Assembly (NCBI RefSeq): GCF_030287445.1
Contig: NZ_JASVWB010000002.1
Coordinates: 620,001 to 684,000, forward strand
Origin: Streptomyces sp. ALI-76-A
GTDB lineage: Bacteria > Actinomycetota > Actinomycetes > Streptomycetales > Streptomycetaceae
Direction: 5' to 3'
DNA: 64,000 nt
Below, piece after piece: positions 2 through 48,229 of the stretch. Position numbers and translations under genes: made by a program. The notes under the pieces were generated by a model. That model was not told the DNA's origin. It did not search any database and worked only from the letters and a program-made list of their open reading frames with translations. The first letter of the stretch is position 1, and the number at the start of each line of letters is the position of its first letter.

Positions 2-550
2 TCCGCCGACTATCTCGACGGCGCGATCATGACCACCCCGCCGGGAGTCGGCAGCCCCGAGATGATGTTCCTCTACAGCGGTTCCGCCGCCGCCTTCGAA
101 GCCCACCGCCCGACCTTGGCGGCCCTGGGCGACCCTCTGTACCTGGGTGCGGACCCGGGTTTGGCCTCCCTCTACGACGCCGCGCTGCTCGGCCTGATGT
201 GGTCCACCATGACCGGCTGGCTGCACGGCACCGCACTGGTCGGCGCCGACCAGACACCGGCCACCGCCTTCACCCCTGTCGCGATCCGCTGGCTGACCAC
301 CGTGGCCGGCTTCCTGACGACCTACGCTCCCCAGGTGGACGCCGGCCGCTACCCCGGCGACGACGCCACCGTCGACGTACAGATCGCCGCGATCGACCAT
401 CTCCTCCACGCCGCAACCTCCCGCGGCATCGACAACGCCCTGCCCCTCCTCCTCAAGTCCGCCATGGAACGGGCCAAGGCCGCAGGGCACGGCTCCGACA
501 GCTATGCGAGCGTGATCGAGGTCCTGAAGAACCCCGCAGTCGGCCAATGA
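2..550 (+). CDS. Imine-reductase-like NAD(P)-dependent oxidoreductase, 3' part
   Basis: The open frame enters from the left edge and encodes the last 182 residues of an NAD(P)-dependent enzyme of the 6-phosphogluconate dehydrogenase / beta-hydroxyacid dehydrogenase fold. The stretch YLDGAIM..P..G.PE.MFLYSGS, followed by an almost entirely helical C-terminal part, matches the dimerising half of Streptomyces imine-reductase-type proteins. The N-terminal Rossmann domain lies outside the window. These enzymes reduce cyclic imines or related carbonyl/imine substrates with NADPH in the cytoplasm; the true substrate cannot be told. The in-frame ATG at 29 is internal. Family assignment is fairly secure, precise activity is inference. 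Confidence 0.8.
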   Translation, partial: SADYLDGAIMTTPPGVGSPEMMFLYSGSAAAFEAHRPTLAALGDPLYLGADPGLASLYDAALLGLMWSTMTGWLHGTALVGADQTPATAFTPVAIRWLTTVAGFLTTYAPQVDAGRYPGDDATVDVQIAAIDHLLHAATSRGIDNALPLLLKSAMERAKAAGHGSDSYASVIEVLKNPAVGQ

Positions 551-28196: not shown

Positions 28197-29390
28197 TCAG
28201 GTCTCCCGGACCGGCGCGTACACCTCGGGATCCACTCCGAACGTCCAGGCGACGCCCGCCTTCGCGGTCCGGGTGGTGGGCGGTACGCGCAGCCAGTACG
28301 TGCGCCGGGTGCCGTCCGGTTCCGGTGTGGAGTTGAGCACCTCCACCATCGCGACCGGCTCGTCGTCCGGCAGATCGATGCGCCACAGGGTGCCCGTCAC
28401 GTCCCGGTGCACGGGCTGGGCTCGGGAGTCCGTCAGATAGCGGTCGTAACCGTAGTACTCCAGCATGACCCGGCGCAGCTCGGCGTTCTCCTCGGACCGG
28501 ATCCGCTCCGGTGTCAGGGAGGGCAGTTCGGCGAGGAACTCGGCCGGTACGGGCATGCCGCGCCATGCGTGGAGGGCGAAACCGTCCGGATAGGCGAGCG
28601 CCGGACCGTCTCCGCGGTCGAGCCGGCCGGCCTCGTCCCGGTGCAGGGCCACGGGCCGCTCGCACACGACCGCCACCCGGGCGTACGGCCACCACCAGCC
28701 CGCGCTGCGGCACACCGCGGCCACCGCGTCGAGCGGACCGCCGTCCGCGGACACCGCGTCGAGGGGACCGTCGTCCGTGGCGAACGCGGCGAGCCAGGGG
28801 GCGTCGTGCTGTCCGAGCACGGCGTCCAGGAGGAGCAGCCGGACCTCCGCGGCCTCCGCTCCCGTCTCCCGGCCCACCAGCTCGTCGAGAACGCCGGTGC
28901 GGATCCGGTCCACGAGTGCCTGGGTGGACTCCCACAACCGTCCACCGGTCGCCGCCCAGTGCGCCGACCAGCCCCCCGCTCCCAACTCCTCGTGCAGTCG
29001 ACGCCGTTCCAGCGCCCAGGGCGTGCTGCGGACCGCGTCGCGCACGCTGGGGCCCCGGTCCGCGAGTTCCCGGAGCAGCGTGACGGCCGCGCGCGGGGAA
29101 CCGGCCCACACCACGCGCTCCGGTTCGGCGAGTCCGGCCCGCCGGTACGCCCGCCGGACACCGTCCTCGGCGGCCGCCCGGTCGGCGGGAACGGTCGCCG
29201 ACGCCCACGCCCGCCACGCGCCCAGGCCGTCGGAGGCGCTGTCCTCCGCCGCCAGCGCGTCCATGTCCGCCGTGGTCAGGTGCTCCTCCGGCGCGTCCGT
29301 GTCCGCCCCGGTCGGATGCTCCTCCGTCACGTGCCCGCCCGTCATGTGGCCCTCCGCCATGTGCTGCTCCGTCATGTGCCCGCCCCTCAT
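28197..29390 (-). CDS. DUF6745-like protein
   Basis: The 397-residue protein has a variable N-terminal tail made of imperfect HMT/HMAEGH-like repeats (residues 1-25). A mainly helical domain follows (AEPERVVWAGSPRAAVTLLR; LHEELGAGGWSAHWAATGG). The C-terminal third contains HRDEAGRLDRGDGPALAYPD, FALHAWRGMPVPAEFL and EVLNSTPEPDG. I associate this C-terminal pattern with DUF6745, often found beside leucine-rich-repeat proteins; biochemical function is unknown. Five in-frame ATG/GTG codons in the first 25 codons make the start uncertain. It is second in a two-gene unit driven by a damage-type promoter shared divergently with the STM4015-like operon. Confidence 0.75.
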   Translation of the reverse strand: MRGGHMTEQHMAEGHMTGGHVTEEHPTGADTDAPEEHLTTADMDALAAEDSASDGLGAWRAWASATVPADRAAAEDGVRRAYRRAGLAEPERVVWAGSPRAAVTLLRELADRGPSVRDAVRSTPWALERRRLHEELGAGGWSAHWAATGGRLWESTQALVDRIRTGVLDELVGRETGAEAAEVRLLLLDAVLGQHDAPWLAAFATDDGPLDAVSADGGPLDAVAAVCRSAGWWWPYARVAVVCERPVALHRDEAGRLDRGDGPALAYPDGFALHAWRGMPVPAEFLAELPSLTPERIRSEENAELRRVMLEYYGYDRYLTDSRAQPVHRDVTGTLWRIDLPDDEPVAMVEVLNSTPEPDGTRRTYWLRVPPTTRTAKAGVAWTFGVDPEVYAPVRET

Positions 29391-29414
29391 GTCCGCCCGT
29401 TGCCCCGCGCTGTG

Positions 29415-29741
29415 TCAGTCCGCCACGATCCGCACGGACCCGGGCACGTACTCCCGCTGTCTGATCACGCGGTACCACCCCTTGGGCAGCGGGATCGCCG
29501 CGTGCTCCTCGTGCACCACCCGCCCGCCCTGGGGGAGGTGCAGCAGGAACGGCCCGAACGGCCCCGGCTCACGCACCAACTCCCCCGGTCCGACGACCGC
29601 GTGGGCATGCCCGGTGACCTCGCCGAGCGCCAGCACGAGCCGGCCCCGCGCGTCGCGCCGCTCCCTCGGCGCGTGGGCCACCTGCGCGGGCACCGCCTCC
29701 TCCGTCACGGGCACGATCAGCACGTCTCCCTGCCGGTACAT
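29415..29741 (-). CDS. 108-residue companion of the DUF6745-like protein
   Basis: The protein starts MYRQGDVLIVPVTEEAVP after GAGGGGAGAGCC. It is predicted all-beta, with two histidine clusters, TGHAHAVVGPGE and VVHEEHAAIPLPKGWY, and a C-terminal VIRQREYVPGSVR. The histidines could form a metal site, as in cupins; no known family can be named with confidence. It ends 24 bases before the DUF6745-like gene, so the two form one transcription unit. TTGTCAGTG-N8-TACGGT lies about 50 bases upstream, pointing to induction by DNA damage. Confidence 0.8.
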   Translation of the reverse strand: MYRQGDVLIVPVTEEAVPAQVAHAPRERRDARGRLVLALGEVTGHAHAVVGPGELVREPGPFGPFLLHLPQGGRVVHEEHAAIPLPKGWYRVIRQREYVPGSVRIVAD

Positions 29742-29790
29742 GGCTCTCCCCTCACCGCCGGGTGCCCCTCGCACCGGCCTCATGTCGAGA

Positions 29791-29813
29791 ACCGTACGGG
29801 CCGCCACTGACAA
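29791..29813 (-). promoter_or_regulatory. RecA-independent DNA-damage promoter (PafBC-type), leftward
   Basis: On the minus strand TTGTCAGTG (29813-29805), eight bases, then TACGGT (29796-29791) match the TTGTCRGTG-N8-TANNNT consensus exactly. Transcription would start about 40 bases before the 108-residue protein gene. The TTGTCAGTG box is one arm of an 11-bp inverted repeat with the rightward promoter. Confidence 0.78.
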
Positions 29814-29844
29814 CGCCCCTCGATCCCGCACCCCCCGGCGGACG

Positions 29845-29867
29845 TTGTCAGTGCCTGTTGGTACAAC
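29845..29867 (+). promoter_or_regulatory. RecA-independent DNA-damage promoter (PafBC-type), rightward
   Basis: TTGTCAGTG (29845-29853), eight bases, then TACAAC (29862-29867) match TTGTCRGTG-N8-TANNNT except for the last base. A start near 29874 gives a 40-base leader before the STM4015-like gene. CACTGACAACG (29805-29815) and CGTTGTCAGTG (29843-29853) make the two promoters mirror images. Confidence 0.72.
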
Positions 29868-29913
29868 TGCCGTCATCACGGACCGCGCACCTTTTCCACT
29901 CTGGAGCAGCCGC

Positions 29914-30873
29914 ATGACCATCGGTGACCACCTGCACGAGCTGTACCGGCTGCCCGCCTACGACTTCCCGGGGCCCGACGCGAAGACGGACGGCCTGCCC
30001 GATCCGGAGTCCGTCGCCTGGCGCGTCAAGGCCGACGTGTACGACTCCGACGAGGGTTGGACGGATGCCTTCGCGCGCTTCCGCGGCACCGTCGACACCA
30101 CCCGCCTCCGGGCCCTGATCGTCGGGGCCTGGTCGGAGGCCTACGAAACGGGCCCGTCCGACGTCATCGAGGCCCTCCTCGCGGCCCGGGAGCACCTCCC
30201 CGCGCTGCGCGCGCTGTTCCTCGGCGACATGGTGATGGAGGAGTGCGAGATCTCCTGGATCAACCAGTCCGACGTCACCCCGCTGCTGACCGGCTTCCCC
30301 GCCCTGGAGGAGTTCGGTGTGCGCGGCGGGACGGGGCTGGAGTTCCCCGCACTGAGCCACGGCGCGCTGCGCAAGCTCGTCGTGGAGACCGGTGGCCTGC
30401 CCGCCGACGTGGTGCGCGGCATCGGCGGCAGCGACCTGCCCGCCCTGGAACACCTCGACCTGTGGCTGGGCACCCCCGACTACGGCGGCGACAGCGAGGC
30501 CGCCGATCTGGAGCCCATCCTGTCCGGAGCCCGGCTGCCGCGCCTGCGTCACCTGTCCCTGCGCAACAGCGAGATGCAGGACGCCGTCGCCGCGGCCGTC
30601 GCCTCCGCGCCCGTCGTGGCCCGGCTGGAGGTGCTGGACCTGTCCATGGGCGTCCTGACCGACGAGGGTGCCGGCGCGCTGCTGAGCGGTCAGCCGCTCA
30701 CCCACCTCAGGAAGCTCGACCTGCACCACCACTACCTCAGCAAGCCCTTCGAGGACCGCGTCCGGCAGACCCTGGAACCGGCGGGCGTGGAGGTGGACCT
30801 CGACCGTGACGACGCGGAGGAGGAGACGGAAGGCGACGGCACGGTCTGGCGCTACGTCGCCGTGGGCGAGTGA
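29914..30873 (+). CDS. STM4015-family leucine-rich-repeat protein
   Basis: The 319-residue protein starts MTIGDHLHELYRLPAYDFPG. Residues 70-300 form a ribonuclease-inhibitor-like LRR fold with repeated L..L.L...... units: LPALRALFLGDMVMEE, FPALEEFGVRGGTGLEF, LPALEHLDLWLGTPDYG, LPRLRHLSLRNSEMQD, ARLEVLDLSMGVLTDEG and LTHLRKLDLHHHYLS. The acidic C-terminal tail is EEETEGDGT-like. It is probably a protein-binding scaffold. Its stop overlaps the GTG of the next gene (GTGA), and the five following genes are nearly all overlapping, so it heads a tightly coupled operon. A DNA-damage-type promoter lies 47 bases upstream. Confidence 0.88.
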   Translation: MTIGDHLHELYRLPAYDFPGPDAKTDGLPDPESVAWRVKADVYDSDEGWTDAFARFRGTVDTTRLRALIVGAWSEAYETGPSDVIEALLAAREHLPALRALFLGDMVMEECEISWINQSDVTPLLTGFPALEEFGVRGGTGLEFPALSHGALRKLVVETGGLPADVVRGIGGSDLPALEHLDLWLGTPDYGGDSEAADLEPILSGARLPRLRHLSLRNSEMQDAVAAAVASAPVVARLEVLDLSMGVLTDEGAGALLSGQPLTHLRKLDLHHHYLSKPFEDRVRQTLEPAGVEVDLDRDDAEEETEGDGTVWRYVAVGE

Positions 30874-32036
30874 CCACGTCGTCCACGGTCCGGCCGGCGG
30901 CAGCCTCCCGGCCGCGCTTCGCGGTGGTCGGCAACCCGGAGAACCGCCGGGTTTCCCTCTTCGGCGACGCGGTGCGCGCGGCCGGCCTGCCCGGCCCGCG
31001 CGTCGTCCCCTGGGTGGACGTCCTGCGCGCCCGGGGGGCCGAGTTCGCCGCTGACGAGTTCGTCCGCGTCGACTCACCCGGCGAGAACCCTGCGGTCGAC
31101 CGTCTGTTGCGGGGCGCCCAGGAACCCACCCGGGTGGAGGGCTCGGCCCGTTGGTACGCCGCGTTCACCGCCGCGCTGCGCGGTCTGCGCGGCGGCGTCC
31201 GGCTGGACGACCCCGACGACCTCGCCGTGCTGTTCGACAAGCGCCGCTGTCACGCCGTGCTCGACGCGGCGGGCGTACCCGTCCCCTCCTCCCCCACCTC
31301 GGGACCGCTGGGCGCGCCGGTGCGCGGCTGGGACGACGTACGGGCGCTGATGCGCGCGCACCGGATGCCGCGGCTGTTCGTCAAACCCGCGCACGGCTCG
31401 TCCGCGTCGGGAGTGCTCGCCGTCGAGACGGGCGGTGGCGGCCGGATCAGGGCCACCACCTCCGTGGAACGCGCCCCCGACGGCCGTCTGCACAACTCCC
31501 TCAAGGTGCGCCGCTACGAGCGGGAACAGGACATCGCCGCCATCGTCGACGCGCTCGCCCCCGACGGCCTGCACGTCGAGCGCTGGCTGCCCAAGGCATC
31601 CCAGCAGGGCCGCGCCGCGGACCTGAGAGTGGTCGTGGTGGCCGGCCGGGCCACCCACGCGGTGGTCCGCACCAGCCGCTCGCCCCTGACCAACCTCCAC
31701 CTCGGCGGCAGCCGCGGCGACCTCGACGCGGCCCGGCAGGCGGTGGAGGCGGCGGGCGCCCGCTGGGCCGACGTGCTCGGCGTGTGCGAGCGGGCCGCGG
31801 CCTGCTTCCCGCGCACGCTCTGCGTCGGCGTGGACCTGTTGCCGGCCGTGGGCTGGCGCCGCGCCTTCGTCGGCGAGGTCAACGCCTTCGGCGATCTGCT
31901 GCCCCGGCTCACCGGCCTGCCCGGCAGCGGCGCCGAGGGCCTGGACACCTATGCCGCGCAGGTGGCGGCCGTGCTGAACGGTCACGCCCGGTCCGGCCCG
32001 CTCGCCCTGTACAGAACAAGGACACCGTATGCCTGA
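30870..32036 (+). CDS. STM4014-family protein, ATP-grasp-like
   Basis: The 388-residue protein has features of an ATP-grasp ligase. An N-terminal preATP-like part is RFAVVGNPENRRVSLFGDAV. The ATP-binding half includes VLFDKRRCHAVLDAAGVPVP and RLFVKPAHGSSASGVLAVE, whose lysine and glycine-rich loop would hold ATP. RVVVVAGRATHAVVRTS and GEVNAFGDLLP follow, the last with the metal-binding Glu/Asn pair. ATP-grasp enzymes join a carboxylate to an amine or thiol through an acyl phosphate. The substrate is unknown; a peptide is plausible given the radical-SAM partners. Starts at GTG 30870 and overlaps both neighbours. Confidence 0.8.
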   Translation: MTTSSTVRPAAASRPRFAVVGNPENRRVSLFGDAVRAAGLPGPRVVPWVDVLRARGAEFAADEFVRVDSPGENPAVDRLLRGAQEPTRVEGSARWYAAFTAALRGLRGGVRLDDPDDLAVLFDKRRCHAVLDAAGVPVPSSPTSGPLGAPVRGWDDVRALMRAHRMPRLFVKPAHGSSASGVLAVETGGGGRIRATTSVERAPDGRLHNSLKVRRYEREQDIAAIVDALAPDGLHVERWLPKASQQGRAADLRVVVVAGRATHAVVRTSRSPLTNLHLGGSRGDLDAARQAVEAAGARWADVLGVCERAAACFPRTLCVGVDLLPAVGWRRAFVGEVNAFGDLLPRLTGLPGSGAEGLDTYAAQVAAVLNGHARSGPLALYRTRTPYA

Positions 32037-32859
32037 GCCGGACATGAACGAGGTCGTCGGCAGTCACGACATCCTCCTCGTCACCCTCGACACGCTGCGC
32101 CACGACGTGGCCGTCGAACTGGCGGCGGAGGGCCGGATCCCGCATCTCGCCCGCCATCTGCCCGACGGCCGCTGGGAGCAGCGCCACGCGCCGGGCAGTT
32201 TCACCTACGCCTCCCACCAGGCGATCTTCGCGGGCTTCCTGCCGACGCCCGCCGCTCCCGGGCCTCATCCGCGGCTGTTCGCGGCGAGCTTCGCGGGCAG
32301 CGAGACCACCGCCGGCGGCACCTTCGTGTACGACACCCCGGATCTCGTGTCCGGGCTGGCCGGGGCCGGCTACCACACCGTGTGCGTGGGAGGTGTGGGC
32401 TTCTTCAACAAGCAGGGCCCGCTCGGCTCGGTGCTGCCCGGCCTCTTCGACGAGTCCCACTGGGAGCCGGAGTTCGGCGTCACCTCACCGCGCTCCTTCG
32501 AGCGCCAGATCGACCGCGCGGAATCCGTCATCGGCCGACTGCCCGCCGAGCAGCGGCTGTTCCTGTTCGTGAACGTCTCCGCCCTGCACCAGCCGAACTG
32601 GTTCCACCTGCCCGGCGCGACCCGGGAGGCCGGAGACACCCGCCGGACGCACGCCGCCGCGCTGGAGTACGTCGACCGGCACATCGGCCGGCTCTTCGCC
32701 GCCGCGAGCAGCCGCCGCCGCTGCTTCACCATCGTCTGCTCCGACCATGGCACCGCCTACGGCGACGACGGCTACACCGGCCACCGCCTGGGCCACGAGT
32801 CCGTGTGGACCGTGCCCTACGCCCACTTCTTCCTCGACCCCGCCGAGGCCGCCGTATGA
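32029..32859 (+). CDS. STM4013/SEN3800-family hydrolase (alkaline-phosphatase fold)
   Basis: The 276-residue protein resembles the sulfatase/phosphopentomutase superfamily. It has a first metal-binding strand ILLVTLDTLRHDVA, a nucleophile-region-like SFTYASHQAIFAGFLPT and the second metal motif TIVCSDHGTAYGDD with GHRLGHES following. A cysteine in the sulfatase CxPxR position is absent, so a Thr/Ser nucleophile and a phosphatase or phosphodiesterase activity are more likely. No signal peptide: it acts in the cytoplasm with its partners. Its ATG lies eight bases inside the preceding gene and its stop overlaps the next (ATGA). Confidence 0.85.
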   Translation: MPEPDMNEVVGSHDILLVTLDTLRHDVAVELAAEGRIPHLARHLPDGRWEQRHAPGSFTYASHQAIFAGFLPTPAAPGPHPRLFAASFAGSETTAGGTFVYDTPDLVSGLAGAGYHTVCVGGVGFFNKQGPLGSVLPGLFDESHWEPEFGVTSPRSFERQIDRAESVIGRLPAEQRLFLFVNVSALHQPNWFHLPGATREAGDTRRTHAAALEYVDRHIGRLFAAASSRRRCFTIVCSDHGTAYGDDGYTGHRLGHESVWTVPYAHFFLDPAEAAV

Positions 32860-34193
32860 CCACCGCCCAGTTGACCAGCCCCTACCAGCACTACGTCTAC
32901 GCCTACCCGCACAAGACCGCCTACCGCGGCCTGCCCGACCGCCCCTCGCTCGTCTCCCTGTGGGCGGCCGAAGCCAAGGACGCCCTCTCCCTCTACCTGC
33001 ACATACCGTTCTGTGAGGTCCGCTGCGGCTTCTGCAACCTGTTCACCCGCATCGGCGCCCCCGACGGCCTGACCGGCGCCTACCTGGACGCCCTGGAACG
33101 GCAGGCCGACGCCGTACGGAACGCGCTGGGTCACGAGGAGGACGTACGGTTCGCCACCGCGGCGTTCGGCGGCGGCACGCCCACCTTCCTCACCGCGGCC
33201 GAGCTGGAGCGTCTCTGCGACATCGCGGAGCACCGCATGGGCGCCGGCCTGCGCGCGATCCCGCTGTCGGTGGAGGCCTCACCGGCCACGGCCACCGCCG
33301 ACCGCCTCGCCGTCCTGGCGGACCGCGGGACGACCCGGCTGAGTCTGGGCGTCCAGAGCTTCGTCGACGCCGAGGCCCGGTCCGCCGTACGTCCGCAACG
33401 CCGCGCCGACGTCGAGGCCGCCCTCGCCCGCATCCGTGACACCCGCATCCCGGTCCTCAACATCGACCTCATCTACGGCATCGACGGCCAGACCGAACAG
33501 AGCTGGCGGCACTCCCTGGACGCGGCCCTCGCCTGGCGACCCGAGGAGCTGTACCTCTATCCGCTCTACGTCCGCCCGCTGACCGGCCTCGGCCGCCGCG
33601 GTGCCGACCACCTGCCCGACCCGGCCTGGGACGGGCAACGGCTGCGCCTGTACCGCGCGGGCCGCGACCACCTCCTCGCACACGGCTACACCCAGCAGTC
33701 CATGCGCATGTTCCGCCGCGCCGACGCCCCGCCGCAGGGCGCCGACGACTACGCCTGCCAGACCGACGGCATGATCGGCCTGGGCTGCGGCGCCCGCTCC
33801 TACACCTCCACCGTGCACTACTCCTTCGACTACGCCGTGGGCATGCACGAGATCCGCGGCATCATCGACGACTACGTCGCCACGTCCGACTTCAGCCGCG
33901 TCGAGGTCGGTTACCGCATGGACGGCCAGGAAGCGCGCCGCCGCCACCTGCTGCAGTCGCTCCTCCAGGCCGAGGGGCTTTCCGTCGGCGACTACCGCGC
34001 CCGCTTCGGCAGCGCCCCCGCCGACGAGTTCGGCCCGGAACTGCACCGCCTCGCCGACCGCGGCTGGCTGACCGGGACCGACTCCACGACCCTGCGGCTC
34101 ACACCCGAGGGCCTGGCGCACTCCGACGCCATCGGCCCGGAGCTGTTCTCCCCGACCGTACGGGCGGCCATGTCCGCCTACGAGAGGAAGTGA
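32856..34193 (+). CDS. STM4012-family radical SAM protein (HemW-like)
   Basis: The 445-residue protein carries the radical-SAM cluster motif CEVRCGFCN (Cys53, Cys57, Cys60) after LSLYLHIPF. It also has a GGGTPTFL glycine motif, LSLGVQSFVDAE and LNIDLIYGIDGQT. These are the coproporphyrinogen-dehydrogenase-like/HemW arrangement. The C-terminal HemN-type domain is present (YRMDGQEARRRHLLQSLL) and ends in a winged-helix-like region. HemN-like radical-SAM enzymes can act on porphyrins, transfer methyl groups or move heme; which applies is not known. Translationally coupled to the hydrolase gene upstream. Confidence 0.9.
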   Translation: MTTAQLTSPYQHYVYAYPHKTAYRGLPDRPSLVSLWAAEAKDALSLYLHIPFCEVRCGFCNLFTRIGAPDGLTGAYLDALERQADAVRNALGHEEDVRFATAAFGGGTPTFLTAAELERLCDIAEHRMGAGLRAIPLSVEASPATATADRLAVLADRGTTRLSLGVQSFVDAEARSAVRPQRRADVEAALARIRDTRIPVLNIDLIYGIDGQTEQSWRHSLDAALAWRPEELYLYPLYVRPLTGLGRRGADHLPDPAWDGQRLRLYRAGRDHLLAHGYTQQSMRMFRRADAPPQGADDYACQTDGMIGLGCGARSYTSTVHYSFDYAVGMHEIRGIIDDYVATSDFSRVEVGYRMDGQEARRRHLLQSLLQAEGLSVGDYRARFGSAPADEFGPELHRLADRGWLTGTDSTTLRLTPEGLAHSDAIGPELFSPTVRAAMSAYERK

Positions 34194-34203
34194 CCGTCCC
34201 GCC

Positions 34204-35142
34204 ATGGACCTGACCCTCCTCTACCGGGGCCCGCTCGCCTCCTGCGACTACGACTGCCCCTACTGCCCGTTCGCCAAGCGGCGCGACTCGACCGCGCGAC
34301 TCCGCGCCGACCGCGCCGCCCTGGAACGCTTCGCCCAGTGGGCCGGCGACCGGACCGACGACCGGCTCTCCCTCCTCTTCACCCCCTGGGGCGAGGGCCT
34401 GGTCCGCTCCTGGTACCGGCGCACCCTCGCGGAGCTGTCCCATCTCCCGCACATCCGCCGGGTGGCCATCCAGACGAACCTCAGCTGCCGCACCGACTGG
34501 CTGGCCGAGGCGGACGCCGACACCCTCGCCCTGTGGTGCACCTACCACCCGGGCCAGACGCCGTACGACCGCTTCCTCGCCAAGTGCCATGACCTGGCCG
34601 ACCGGGGGGTCCGCTTCAGTGTCGGCGTCGTCGGCCTGCCCGAGCACCTGGAGGCGGCCCGCCGCCTGCGCGCCGATCTGCCGGAACACGTCTACCTGTG
34701 GATCAACGCGGCCGAGGGGCACACCTACCAGGACGCCGACGCCGACACGTGGACCGCGCTCGACCCGCTGTTCCCCTACAGCCGCACCCCGCACACCAGC
34801 GCCGGTCTGCCCTGCCGCACCGGCGACTCGGTGATCTCGGTCGACGGCGACGGCACCGTCCGCCGCTGCCACTTCGTCCGCGCCGAACTGGGCAACCTCT
34901 ACGACGGCTCCTACCGGGCCGCCCTACGCCCCCGCCCCTGCCCCCTGACCACCTGTGACTGCCACATCGGCTACGTCCACCTCGAGACCCTGCCGCTGTA
35001 CGACGTCTTCGCGGGCGGAGTCCTGGAACGCGTCCCGGCCGCCCCACCCGAACGACGCCCGGTCGCCATCGGGCTGACTGCGACGAGCACGGTCGCCGGA
35101 GTGGCCAGCGCCACGGGGGAGGCGTGCGCCGCCGCGCGGTGA
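34204..35142 (+). CDS. STM4011-family radical SAM protein
   Basis: The 312-residue protein has the motif CDYDCPYCPF (Cys14, Cys18, Cys21) very near the N terminus. The usual TIM-barrel segments follow (LLFTPWGEGLVRSWY, RRVAIQTNLS and LWCTYHPGQT). Its C-terminal part contains further cysteines (LPCRTGDSVISVDGDG, RRCHFV, CPLTTCDCHIGYVHL), like the auxiliary-cluster region of SPASM or twitch proteins that modify peptides. The last 45 residues are low-complexity. It closes the operon; a 10-base gap separates it from the HemN-like gene. Peptide or protein modification is inferred, not shown. Confidence 0.9.
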   Translation: MDLTLLYRGPLASCDYDCPYCPFAKRRDSTARLRADRAALERFAQWAGDRTDDRLSLLFTPWGEGLVRSWYRRTLAELSHLPHIRRVAIQTNLSCRTDWLAEADADTLALWCTYHPGQTPYDRFLAKCHDLADRGVRFSVGVVGLPEHLEAARRLRADLPEHVYLWINAAEGHTYQDADADTWTALDPLFPYSRTPHTSAGLPCRTGDSVISVDGDGTVRRCHFVRAELGNLYDGSYRAALRPRPCPLTTCDCHIGYVHLETLPLYDVFAGGVLERVPAAPPERRPVAIGLTATSTVAGVASATGEACAAAR

Positions 35143-46111: not shown

Positions 46112-46134
46112 TTGTCAGTGGTGGCAGGCAGGAT
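46112..46134 (+). promoter_or_regulatory. RecA-independent DNA-damage-type promoter of the ligase gene
   Basis: TTGTCAGTG (46112-46120), eight bases, then CAGGAT (46129-46134) match TTGTCRGTG-N8-TANNNT except for the first T of the -10. The ATG at 46142 lies seven bases downstream, so the mRNA is probably leaderless. Confidence 0.65.
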
Positions 46135-46141
46135 GAGCGGT

Positions 46142-48229
46142 ATGACGACACCAGCTGCTCGGATCGTGGATGCCGCCGCCTACGCCCAGGCGGTCGAGGA
46201 CGCGGTGAAGGCCGCGGCCGCCTACTACGCGGACGGCGCCTCCCCGCTGGACGACGACACCTACGACCGGCTGGTGCGCGGCATCGCGGCATGGGAGGCC
46301 GACCACCCCGATCAGGTGCTGCCCGACTCCCCCACCGGGAAGGTCGCCGGCGGTGCGGTGGAGGGGGACGTACCGCACACGGTGGCGATGCTGAGCCTGG
46401 ACAACGTCTTCTCCCCGGAGGAGTTCACCGCCTGGACCGCCTCACTGGCCCGCAGGACCGGTCACGACGTCACCCGCTTCAGCGTGGAGCCGAAGCTGGA
46501 CGGACTGGCGATCGCCGCCCGCTACCGCCACGGCCGGCTGAGACAGCTGGTCACGCGTGGCGACGGGACCGCCGGTGAGGACGTCTCGCACGCGATCGGC
46601 ACCATCGAGGGCCTCCCCGAGCAGCTGGCCGAGCCGGTCACCGTGGAGGTCCGCGGTGAAGTCCTGATGACCACCGCCCAGTTCGAGCACGCGAACGAGG
46701 TGCGCACCGCGCACGGCGGACAACCCTTCGCGAACCCGCGCGGCGCCTCGGCCGGCAGCCTGCGCGCCCGGGAACGGGCCTACACCGTGCCGATGACGTT
46801 CTTCGGTTACGGGCTCCTCCCGGTGCCCGGCACCGAAACGGCACTGGCCGGGCAGCTGAGCGACCTCGCGCACAGCGACCTGATGGTGCGGGCCGCCGGA
46901 TACGGGGTGAACACCACCGCCTCCACCGCCGTCCCGGGCGTCACCGCCGACACCGCCGAACAGGTCCTGCGCCGCGTCGACGAGATCGCCGCGCTGCGCG
47001 CCGAGCTGCCGTTCGGGATCGACGGGGTCGTCATCAAGGCCGACCTCGCGGCCGACCAGCGGGCCGCCGGATCGGGCTCGCGCGCCCCGCGCTGGGCGAT
47101 CGCCTACAAACTGCCCGCCGTGGAGAAGATCACCCGGCTGCTGGAGGTGGAGTGGAACGTCGGTCGCACCGGCATCATCGCTCCTCGGGCGGTCCTGGAA
47201 CCCGTCCAGATCGACGGCGCCACCATCACCTACGCCACCCTTCACAACCCCGGCGACATCACCCGCCGGGACCTGCGCCTGGGCGACCACGTCATGGTCC
47301 ACCGGGCCGGCGACGTCATCCCCCGCGTCGAGGCACCGGTCGCCCACCTGCGCACCGGTGACGAGCAGCCCATCGCCTTCCCCGAGGTCTGCCCGCGCTG
47401 CGGTTCCGGCATCGACACCGGCGAGCAGCGCTGGCGGTGCGAGAACGGCCGCAACTGCCATCTGGTCGCAGCCCTCTCCTATGCGGCCGGCCGCGACCAG
47501 CTCGACATCGAAGGCCTCGGCCACACCCGCGTCGTCCAGCTCGTCGACGCCGGGCTGGTCGCCGACCTCGCCGACCTGTTCACCCTCACCCGCGAGCAGC
47601 TCCTCGGTCTGGAGCGGATGGGTGAGACCAGCACCGACAATCTCCTCGCCGCGCTCGGCCGGGCCAAGGACCAGCCGTTGTCGCGGGTGCTGTGCGCGCT
47701 CGGCGTGCGGGGTACCGGCCGGTCCATGTCCCGCCGCATCGCCCGCCACTTCGCCACCATGGACCACCTCCGGGCCGCCGACACCACGGCGATGCAGCAG
47801 GTCGAAGGCATCGGCACCGAGAAAGCGCCGTCCATCGTCGCCGAGCTCGCCGAACTGGCCCCGCTCATCGACAAACTCGCCGCGGCCGGGGTGAACATGA
47901 CCGAACCCGGTGCCACCCCGCCCGCTCCGGCGGACACCGGCGCGGACGGTGCCACGGCGGACGCGGAGGCCGTGAGCGGGCCGTTGGCGGGGATGACGGT
48001 GGTCGTCACCGGCGCGATGACCGGCCCTCTGGAGAAGCTCAGCCGCAACCAGATGAACGAACTCGTCGAGCGCGCCGGCGGCCGCTCCTCCTCCAGCGTC
48101 TCCAAGAGAACCAGCCTGGTCGTCGCGGGAGAGGGGGCCGGTTCCAAACGCGCCAAGGCCGAAGACCTGGGCATTCGTCTGGCAGCACCCGACGAGTTCG
48201 CCGCCCTCGTCGCCGACTTTCTCGACTGA
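46142..48229 (+). CDS. ligA: NAD+-dependent DNA ligase
   Basis: The 695-residue protein has the full LigA layout. It has an Ia-like N-terminal part with [17 protein letters not shown], the nucleotidyltransferase domain with active lysine Lys118 in [10 protein letters not shown], then an OB fold with [17 protein letters not shown] Cys4 zinc finger follows ([20 protein letters not shown], then NC), helix-hairpin-helix repeats ([35 protein letters not shown]) and a C-terminal BRCT domain ([13 protein letters not shown]). It seals nicks with NAD+. ATG 46142 is used because the promoter lies seven bases upstream. Streptomyces carry a housekeeping ligA elsewhere, so this is probably a second, damage-responsive copy, which is inference. 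Confidence 0.95.

Follow-up and report, generated by a model that had tools for sequence, protein, structure and literature searches.

Damage-type promoter boxes at a divergent STM4015–STM4011 and P108–DUF6745 locus of Streptomyces

Introduction

Do the enzymes of the STM401x families, two of them radical S-adenosylmethionine (SAM) proteins, belong to a response to DNA damage, and which of the genes that accompany them would be under damage control? The question is raised by a seven-gene locus at positions 28197–35142 of a stretch of 64,000 nucleotides (hereafter the window; contig NZ_JASVWB010000002.1, positions 620,001 to 684,000, forward strand) from the 9.7 Mb genome of Streptomyces sp. 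ALI-76-A. The rightward operon encodes, in this order, STM4015, STM4014, STM4013, STM4012 and STM4011 (the core), and the leftward genes encode an unnamed 108-residue protein, here called P108, followed by a DUF6745 protein (the pair). An initial annotation of the sequence had placed two back-to-back promoters between them, of the type known from mycobacterial RecA/LexA-independent (PafBC) damage genes, and had taken the radical SAM and ligase-like chemistry to suggest that a peptide, protein or nucleic acid is modified in response to damage. In the open-access literature (subscription journals lay outside the scope of the search), we found no paper on the function of STM401x or of DUF6745, and none tying STM401x, DUF6745 or P108 to the PafBC regulon. 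The present analysis supports a damage link that, as read from the DNA, centres on P108–DUF6745 rather than on the radical SAM operon.

Results

Back-to-back boxes in the divergent region

The intergenic region holds 11-bp mirror-image arms that form two boxes, as had been annotated, and one box matches TTGTCRGTG-N8-TANNNT exactly while the other has a single mismatch (published consensus tTGTCRgtg-8nt-TannnT, in the available part of PMC5656591):

29791..29813, minus strand: predicted RecA-NDp/PafBC-type promoter of P108–DUF6745, exact match to TTGTCRGTG-N8-TANNNT
29845..29867, plus strand: predicted RecA-NDp/PafBC-type promoter of the STM4015–4011 operon, one mismatch, at the final T of the -10 element
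29805–29815 and 29843–29853, no strand: 11-bp inverted arms, made of the two opposed -35-type elements plus 2 bp

The spacing from box to start codon is 49 bp on the P108 side and 46 bp on the STM4015 side, and sites with at most one mismatch number three in the whole window as compared with 0.02 in shuffled sequences. Control of the Streptomyces locus by LexA was considered and rejected, since the divergent region lacks a LexA box: no GAAC-N4-GTTC site with zero or one mismatch was found from 28901 to 32463, the window as a whole holding 23 such sites against 17.3 expected.

The motif in this genome and its relatives

The exact motif occurs at 31 sites in the genome, and its reversed pattern, used as a control, at none. 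A downstream reading frame was sought for 30 of the 31, the locus's own included, which leaves 29 outside the locus. Repair or replication proteins (identified by NCBIfam, and by Pfam for RecD2) lie behind 11 of these 29, namely RecA, UvrA, UvrB, RuvC, Ung, DnaX, a RarA-like AAA ATPase, a RecD2-HHH protein and three helicases (DinG/YoaA-like, UvrD-like and Hel308-like); several frames behind boxes are clipped by the end of the stretch scanned and fall short of the full-length cut-offs. The remaining 18 sites precede genes with no evident repair role, among them those for an MFS transporter, SUKH-4, DUF4253, MoaA, a sigma factor and a VWA-like protein, or no convincing gene at all (L055, L047). 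Next to pafA stand pafB and pafC, a WYL/WCX pair of which one member carries HTH_PafC. Exact sites were present in 40 of 41 genomes, with 14–44 in each of the 25 genomes of the genus (reversed, 0–1), both counts including the present genome; in the second family of the order 13 genomes had 2–10 (reversed, 0–1). Genome G052 had 2 and G037 none.

The genus-wide counts agree with an earlier description of a UV-inducible S. rimosus recA promoter and of motif variants ahead of 67 S. coelicolor genes (PMC2375139, available part). They contrast with the suggestion, drawn from an initial motif search in a study of S. venezuelae LexA, that conservation of the M. smegmatis PafBC motif does not extend there (PMC9380542, available part). 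SCO6735 of S. coelicolor, described as UV-induced in the accessible text of PMC5087735, has a box that equals the P108 box at 21 of 23 positions, its sequence being taken from a primer printed in that article. The assignment of the two locus boxes to the RecA-NDp/PafBC type is thus supported at the level of sequence, given that the motif marks recA and other repair genes here and that pafB and pafC are in the genome. The likeness to the PafBC regulon extends to the motif, its spacing, the short distance to the gene and its presence at recA and other repair genes here, whereas the -10 element on the leucine-rich-repeat (LRR) side of the Streptomyces locus departs from the consensus.

A GAC variant of the box, the form found before P108 in most relatives within the genus, occurs three times in the genome, ahead of ligA and of the genes for an SNF2-type (DUF3670) protein and Wadjet JetA. 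The last of these (PADLOC E 3e-185) begins a few bases past a TTGTCAGAC-N8-TANNNT box (L081, C2:1900424-1900446, minus strand), and the Wadjet plasmid-defence system may, to judge by this box, be under PafBC-type damage control. On another contig an exact box precedes the gene for a DUF2397 protein (L031, C1:20136-20158, plus strand). Another exact box stands directly before a MoaA-like molybdenum-cofactor radical SAM gene (L040, C2:2390071-2390093, minus strand), an unexpected partner in a damage regulon.

Conservation of the boxes in actinobacteria

Within the order, 20 related loci from 19 relative genomes were compared: 13 from the genus with the core (one cut by a contig end), 10 of which also have P108–DUF6745; four from the second family with core and pair, in convergent arrangement; and three with an LRR copy only. 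Scores came from a matrix of the 29 genome sites outside the locus, and 153 other upstream regions served as control. On the P108 side 15 of 15 loci, the window included, exceeded the 99% control level. On the STM4015 side in the genus, again with the window, 14 of 14 exceeded the 95% level and 13 of 14 the 99% level, and TGTCRG and TA recur at identical spacing in all 14; this set leaves out the LRR copies without core (L074, L075, L079) and the four order relatives with core (L076–L078, L080). The three orphan copies scored -5.9, -6.0 and 12.1, the last (L079) being a degenerate site; for orphans and order relatives alike, start positions were taken from alignment ends.

A wider sample was obtained by scanning species genomes with an STM4012 alignment and keeping the best 80 of at least 574 confirmed relatives, to which 10 plasmid loci were added (90 in total). 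Measured against 5400 random windows, the best box upstream of P108 had p<0.05 in every one of the 36 actinobacterial loci that carry P108, and in 35 of them p was <0.01. These 36 comprise 35 from the best-80 scan and one plasmid, with many close kin from Actinomadura and Nonomuraea, and are not 36 independent events. Against 234 control upstream regions, scored with a matrix from which the GAC sites were omitted, all 36 exceeded the 95% level; 35 also passed the 99% level, and 34 scored higher than any control. The weakest were the two Paractinoplanes loci. DUF6745 starts, the internal control, gave 0 of 36. In 51 P108 boxes, picked by score and with the window included, TGTC, TA and the final T show no variation. 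The initial annotation had counted the absence of the two boxes from related loci as part of its refutation; they proved to be conserved, on the P108 side in every one of the 36.

A different damage signature in Deinococcus

Three Deinococcus plasmids carry both core and pair; the palindromes in their P108 promoters are TTATGTTATAGACGTAA, TTATGTTGCTAACATAA and TTACGCTAATTACGTAA. These fit the radiation/desiccation response motifs (RDRMs) of ddrB (TGTTATGTTATTTACGTAAG) and ddrF (TGTTATGTTATATACGTAAA) given in the available part of PMC8533742, the D. psychrotolerans site being closely similar. The pattern TTAYGYN5RCRTAA, fixed from these three plasmids, occurs once on each, before P108, and never in reverse. 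A fourth plasmid, pDFI2 of D. ficus, was found after the pattern had been fixed; it carries P108–DUF6745 with no adjoining core, and its sole site, TTATGCTATTTACGTAA, lies 64 bp before P108, an out-of-sample match. All four plasmids (1.77 Mb together) hence have one site each, always before P108. With an RDRM-like palindrome before P108 in Deinococcus, the pair there appears to be under a different, unrelated regulator, and PafBC and DdrO seem, from their sites, to converge on P108–DUF6745. The likeness to the DdrO/IrrE radiation-desiccation regulon (ddrB and ddrF in the accessible text of PMC8533742) concerns the Deinococcus homologues and not the present genome, and the site is at the pair only, not at the core.

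VWA-domain proteins adjoin P108–DUF6745 in D. ficus (L198:7363-9219) and STM4015 in D. taeanensis (L107:1174-3192); the VWA-like protein behind an exact box in the present Streptomyces genome is encoded at L032:1564-2619.

Proteins encoded by the locus

The seven genes were found where they had been annotated, and NCBIfam and Pfam profiles provided the family assignments:

28197..29390, minus strand: DUF6745 protein, 397 residues (PF20530, E 1.3e-114, 381 bits against a gathering cut-off of 27)
29415..29741, minus strand: P108, 108 residues, with the motif GExTGHxH ... HEEH ... RQREYxP (phrog_27831, E 1e-13)
29914..30873, plus strand: STM4015, leucine-rich-repeat protein (NF038076, 405.9 bits, cut-off 275)
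30870..32036, plus strand: STM4014, ATP-grasp-like protein (NF038074, 463.9 bits, cut-off 175)
32029..32859, plus strand: STM4013, alkaline-phosphatase/sulfatase-fold hydrolase (NF038075, 425.5 bits; PF00884, E 4.2e-9)
32856..34193, plus strand: STM4012, HemN/HemW-like radical SAM protein (NF006067, 649.5 bits; PF04055, PF06969)
34204..35142, plus strand: STM4011, radical SAM protein (NF038073, 419.5 bits; CxxxCxxC, conserved C-terminal Cys/His)

All five core proteins exceed the curated NCBIfam cut-offs by far. Three of the four junctions of the rightward operon overlap (30870/30873, 32029/32036 and 32856/32859), while STM4012 and STM4011 are separated by a gap of 10 bp (34193/34204), so that the description of the genes as being in overlapping order was slightly too strong. 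P108 and DUF6745, 24 bp apart, probably form a single operon.

No family of Pfam or NCBIfam was hit by P108 at E<=1e-3. Among its residues that are invariant over 107 sequences are R3, G5, D6, G40, E41, T43, G44, H45, H47, H77, E79, H80, Q95, E97 and Y98. Its predicted structure agrees with the annotated beta protein, being mainly beta with a single short helix of five residues (predicted local distance difference test, pLDDT, 92), and the fold comparison, in which a cupin fold was considered, revealed no clear structural relative. The start codon of DUF6745 is uncertain, its first ~55 residues varying among aligned relatives; residues 60–397 are modelled by AlphaFold at pLDDT 90. The EVNAFGD motif of STM4014 is conserved in the alignment of relatives, and the protein matches PF14398 only at E 4e-4, under Pfam's cut-off. 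The solved chain nearest to STM4012 is HemN 1olt (E 1.3e-22). STM4011 scores only 20.5 bits against PF04055, under the cut-off, and no SPASM family was matched at E<=1e-3 in Pfam or NCBIfam, though its C-terminal Cys residues are conserved. Sequence searches of the PDB gave no informative relative for P108, DUF6745, STM4014, STM4013 or STM4011.

Distribution of core and pair

The STM4011–STM4015 families, which NCBIfam named after Salmonella, range from Salmonella to Streptomyces, cyanobacteria and Planctomycetes. The present proteins resemble them in passing all five cut-offs and in gene order, which is alike in most of the 90 loci; they differ in that the two Salmonella plasmid loci lack both P108–DUF6745 and an enterobacterial LexA box within 300 bp upstream of the core. 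The family names give no function. Core and pair are divergent in Streptomyces and Nocardia and convergent in Actinomadura, Nonomuraea, Deinococcus and Chloroflexi; in Paractinoplanes the pair follows downstream of the core and shares its strand, and the seven genes of Methylobacterium have a single direction. STM4015 matches are often tandem, up to six in L179 (also in L141 and L162), split BLAST pieces being counted singly. In 76 of the 84 loci with both STM4015 and STM4012, every STM4015 match precedes the remaining core genes and shares their strand.

Damage boxes of other kinds were sought in these lineages. No enterobacterial-type LexA box precedes the core in Serratia (L118); one with a single mismatch lies ~230 bp upstream of the core in an Enterobacteriaceae locus (L119), and one-mismatch matches are scattered before the core elsewhere, as by chance. 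Bacteroides (L111) has the alphaproteobacterial pattern, without mismatch, 249 bp upstream of the core, but the site was not credited in that phylum. In a Chloroflexi genome (G456) recA has perfect GAAC-N4-GTTC boxes, and a one-mismatch form of the box precedes P108 in two of four Chloroflexi loci, which is no more than a hint; the genomes of L123 and L147 yielded no recA. No credible damage box was seen before P108 in Gemmataceae, Methylobacterium or Skermanella.

P108 and DUF6745 travel together, both being present in 45 of the 90 loci and one alone in none. Among 61 genomes (the present one and 60 relatives), strong DUF6745 matches (>270 bits) were found in 22 of 26 with STM4015 and in none of 35 without it (Fisher p 7e-13, kinship ignored), a weaker match occurring in one of the 35. 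Farther afield the two modules separate: the pair is found without the core in D. ficus, Skermanella and phages, and the core without the pair in Salmonella, Paenibacillus and Bacteroides, where the core itself is incomplete.

Viral contigs yielded 356 confirmed relatives of P108. Of the 80 loci kept from these, 71 have a DUF6745 match within 1.5 kb, and no core genes were found in any; the core was confirmed in just one viral contig. The phage families phrog_27831 and phrog_31813 resemble P108 and DUF6745, respectively, and lie side by side in phages, but the viral loci read have no STM401x genes. In Microcystis phages the pair adjoins a uracil-DNA glycosylase gene and is near DNA polymerase and dUTPase genes; one other named phage has the pair in opposite order. 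A scan covered 98 neighbouring proteins chosen from 145 listed, and among the families shown (the top 25 of 98 in PHROG and 25 of 46 in Pfam) those with two or three members were RecE-like exonuclease, DNA methyltransferases, DnaB-like helicase, primase/helicase, Cas4 exonuclease and integrases, along with two families whose stated function was different or lacking. Families with one member included RecT, SSB and topoisomerase, as well as a small terminase, a transposase and sugar enzymes. A recurrent phage neighbour of the pair was rejected, the commonest cluster after DUF6745 and P108 being present in only 5 of 47 viral loci.

In a P108 tree built on about 100 residues, core-linked sequences fall into two clades, one of 37 sequences (support 0.96) and one from Deinococcus, Chloroflexi, Gemmataceae and Methylobacterium that includes D. 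ficus (support 0.80); parsimony requires three changes. Given these two separate clades, it seems that core and pair became associated, or were reunited, on more than one occasion. In members from the four groups of the second clade the DUF6745 domain follows a leucine-rich stretch, its repeats being read by eye; among four non-phage DUF6745 proteins scanned, Pfam detected an LRR only in that of L123.

Discussion

On balance, we favour the view that the locus is a DNA-damage-controlled assembly of separable modules. Damage control of P108–DUF6745 is very probable in view of the boxes that precede P108 across actinobacteria, and co-regulation of the STM4015–4011 operon in Streptomyces is likely from the boxes of the genus. 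Several results weigh against extending this view to the enzymes beyond the genus. The four order relatives with core scored 5.3, -1.2, -1.7 and -1.7 on the STM4015 side, mostly as expected by chance; on the LRR side only 23 of 53 actinobacterial loci reached p<0.05 and 11 p<0.01; and no RDRM was seen upstream of STM4015 in the three Deinococcus loci. Of the damage promoters annotated on both sides, the one facing P108 therefore holds across actinobacteria, while the one facing the LRR gene is solid only in Streptomyces (14 of 14). In the same way, the proposal that the locus is a damage response is supported by sequence for P108–DUF6745 and less so for the enzymes, the LRR side being weak outside Streptomyces.

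Alternatively, core and pair may be two neighbours rather than one system, a phage-derived, damage-induced pair merely lying beside STM401x enzymes that do something else, such as making or recycling a cofactor or small molecule. This would account for the pair without core (D. ficus, Skermanella, phages), for the core without pair (Salmonella, Paenibacillus and the incomplete core of Bacteroides), for the near absence of the core from viral contigs (confirmed in one) and for the Deinococcus palindrome being on the pair side only. However, strong DUF6745 was never seen without STM4015 among the 61 genomes, linkage of the pair to the core persists in all four layouts (divergent, convergent, same strand with the pair downstream, and all genes in one direction), and core-linked P108 is in two clades, as if the association had arisen or been rejoined repeatedly. 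We regard mere neighbourhood as possible, if rather unlikely.

Defence against phages or plasmids, in which tandem, divergent LRR proteins would sense the invader, the enzymes would make or attach an effector and the damage promoters would act during infection, appears improbable to us. The tandem copies matching STM4015, as many as six (L179), the Wadjet JetA gene and the DUF2397 protein behind boxes of the same type in this genome, and the carriage of the pair by phages would suit it; but at E<=0.01 the PADLOC models pick out a single protein of the seven, with a partial match of STM4012 to candidate PDC-M51A (E 2.4e-7), and the clearest partners of the motif are repair genes. It could also be argued that the boxes are parts of ordinary sigma-70-type promoters or sites of another WYL regulator, with no link to damage. 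Motif scans can indeed pick look-alikes, the LRR-side -10 departs from the consensus, and 18 of the 29 other partners are not evident repair genes. This explanation is very improbable considering that the exact motif, at 31 sites against 0 for its reverse, marks the main repair genes, and in view of the invariance of TGTC, TA and the final T in the 51 P108 boxes (picked by score, window included) and the RDRM-like site that Deinococcus shows independently.

If the locus is a damage-controlled assembly of modules, DNA damage would lead to production of P108–DUF6745, through sigma adaptation by PafBC or de-repression of DdrO, and the pair, judging from its phage context, would act on DNA or nucleotide metabolism; the invariant His/Glu cluster of P108 could bind a metal. 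The STM4015–4011 operon would modify a protein or peptide, most simply the LRR proteins, which are often tandem, or the DUF6745 partner, whose own N-terminus appears LRR-like in Deinococcus, Chloroflexi, Gemmataceae and Methylobacterium. Both modules would be switched on together in Streptomyces, from the back-to-back damage promoters, and elsewhere mainly the pair. The modification step is tentative. Radical SAM and ATP-grasp-like enzymes beside possible protein substrates recall the radical SAM peptide-modification systems, such as those of ribosomally synthesized and post-translationally modified peptides (RiPPs) or graspetide-like products. The presence of a hydrolase and an LRR protein is, to our knowledge, unlike any known system of this kind.

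A damage-type promoter or operator provides a concrete condition under which to study the STM4011–4015 families and the linked P108–DUF6745; the promoter type of the locus, together with the Deinococcus group's own damage signature before its pair genes, points to a testable role in a damage response. It is tempting to speculate, at rather long odds, that a phage-born pair for DNA metabolism was captured repeatedly, put under the host's own damage regulator (PafBC or DdrO, and in Chloroflexi perhaps LexA) and joined with a maturation operon of radical SAM, ATP-grasp and phosphatase enzymes. Chemical activation would then enable the LRR protein, or DUF6745 itself, to act on DNA that is damaged or foreign. 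If true, a phage-born pair with a maturation operon would be a new kind of damage response.

The remaining near-match to the motif in the window lies away from the locus:

46112–46134, plus strand: third box, one mismatch, overlapping the start of the open reading frame of an NAD-dependent DNA ligase (46112–48229), whose true start is probably several codons further in

This ligase gene is the second for an NAD-dependent enzyme seen in the genome, the other being the ligA of L082. In one genome from the second family of the order (G045) 78 exact boxes were counted, many of them near-identical (TTGTCGGTGGTGGCGTCTAGCAT), as if the promoter had spread with a repeated element or gene family.

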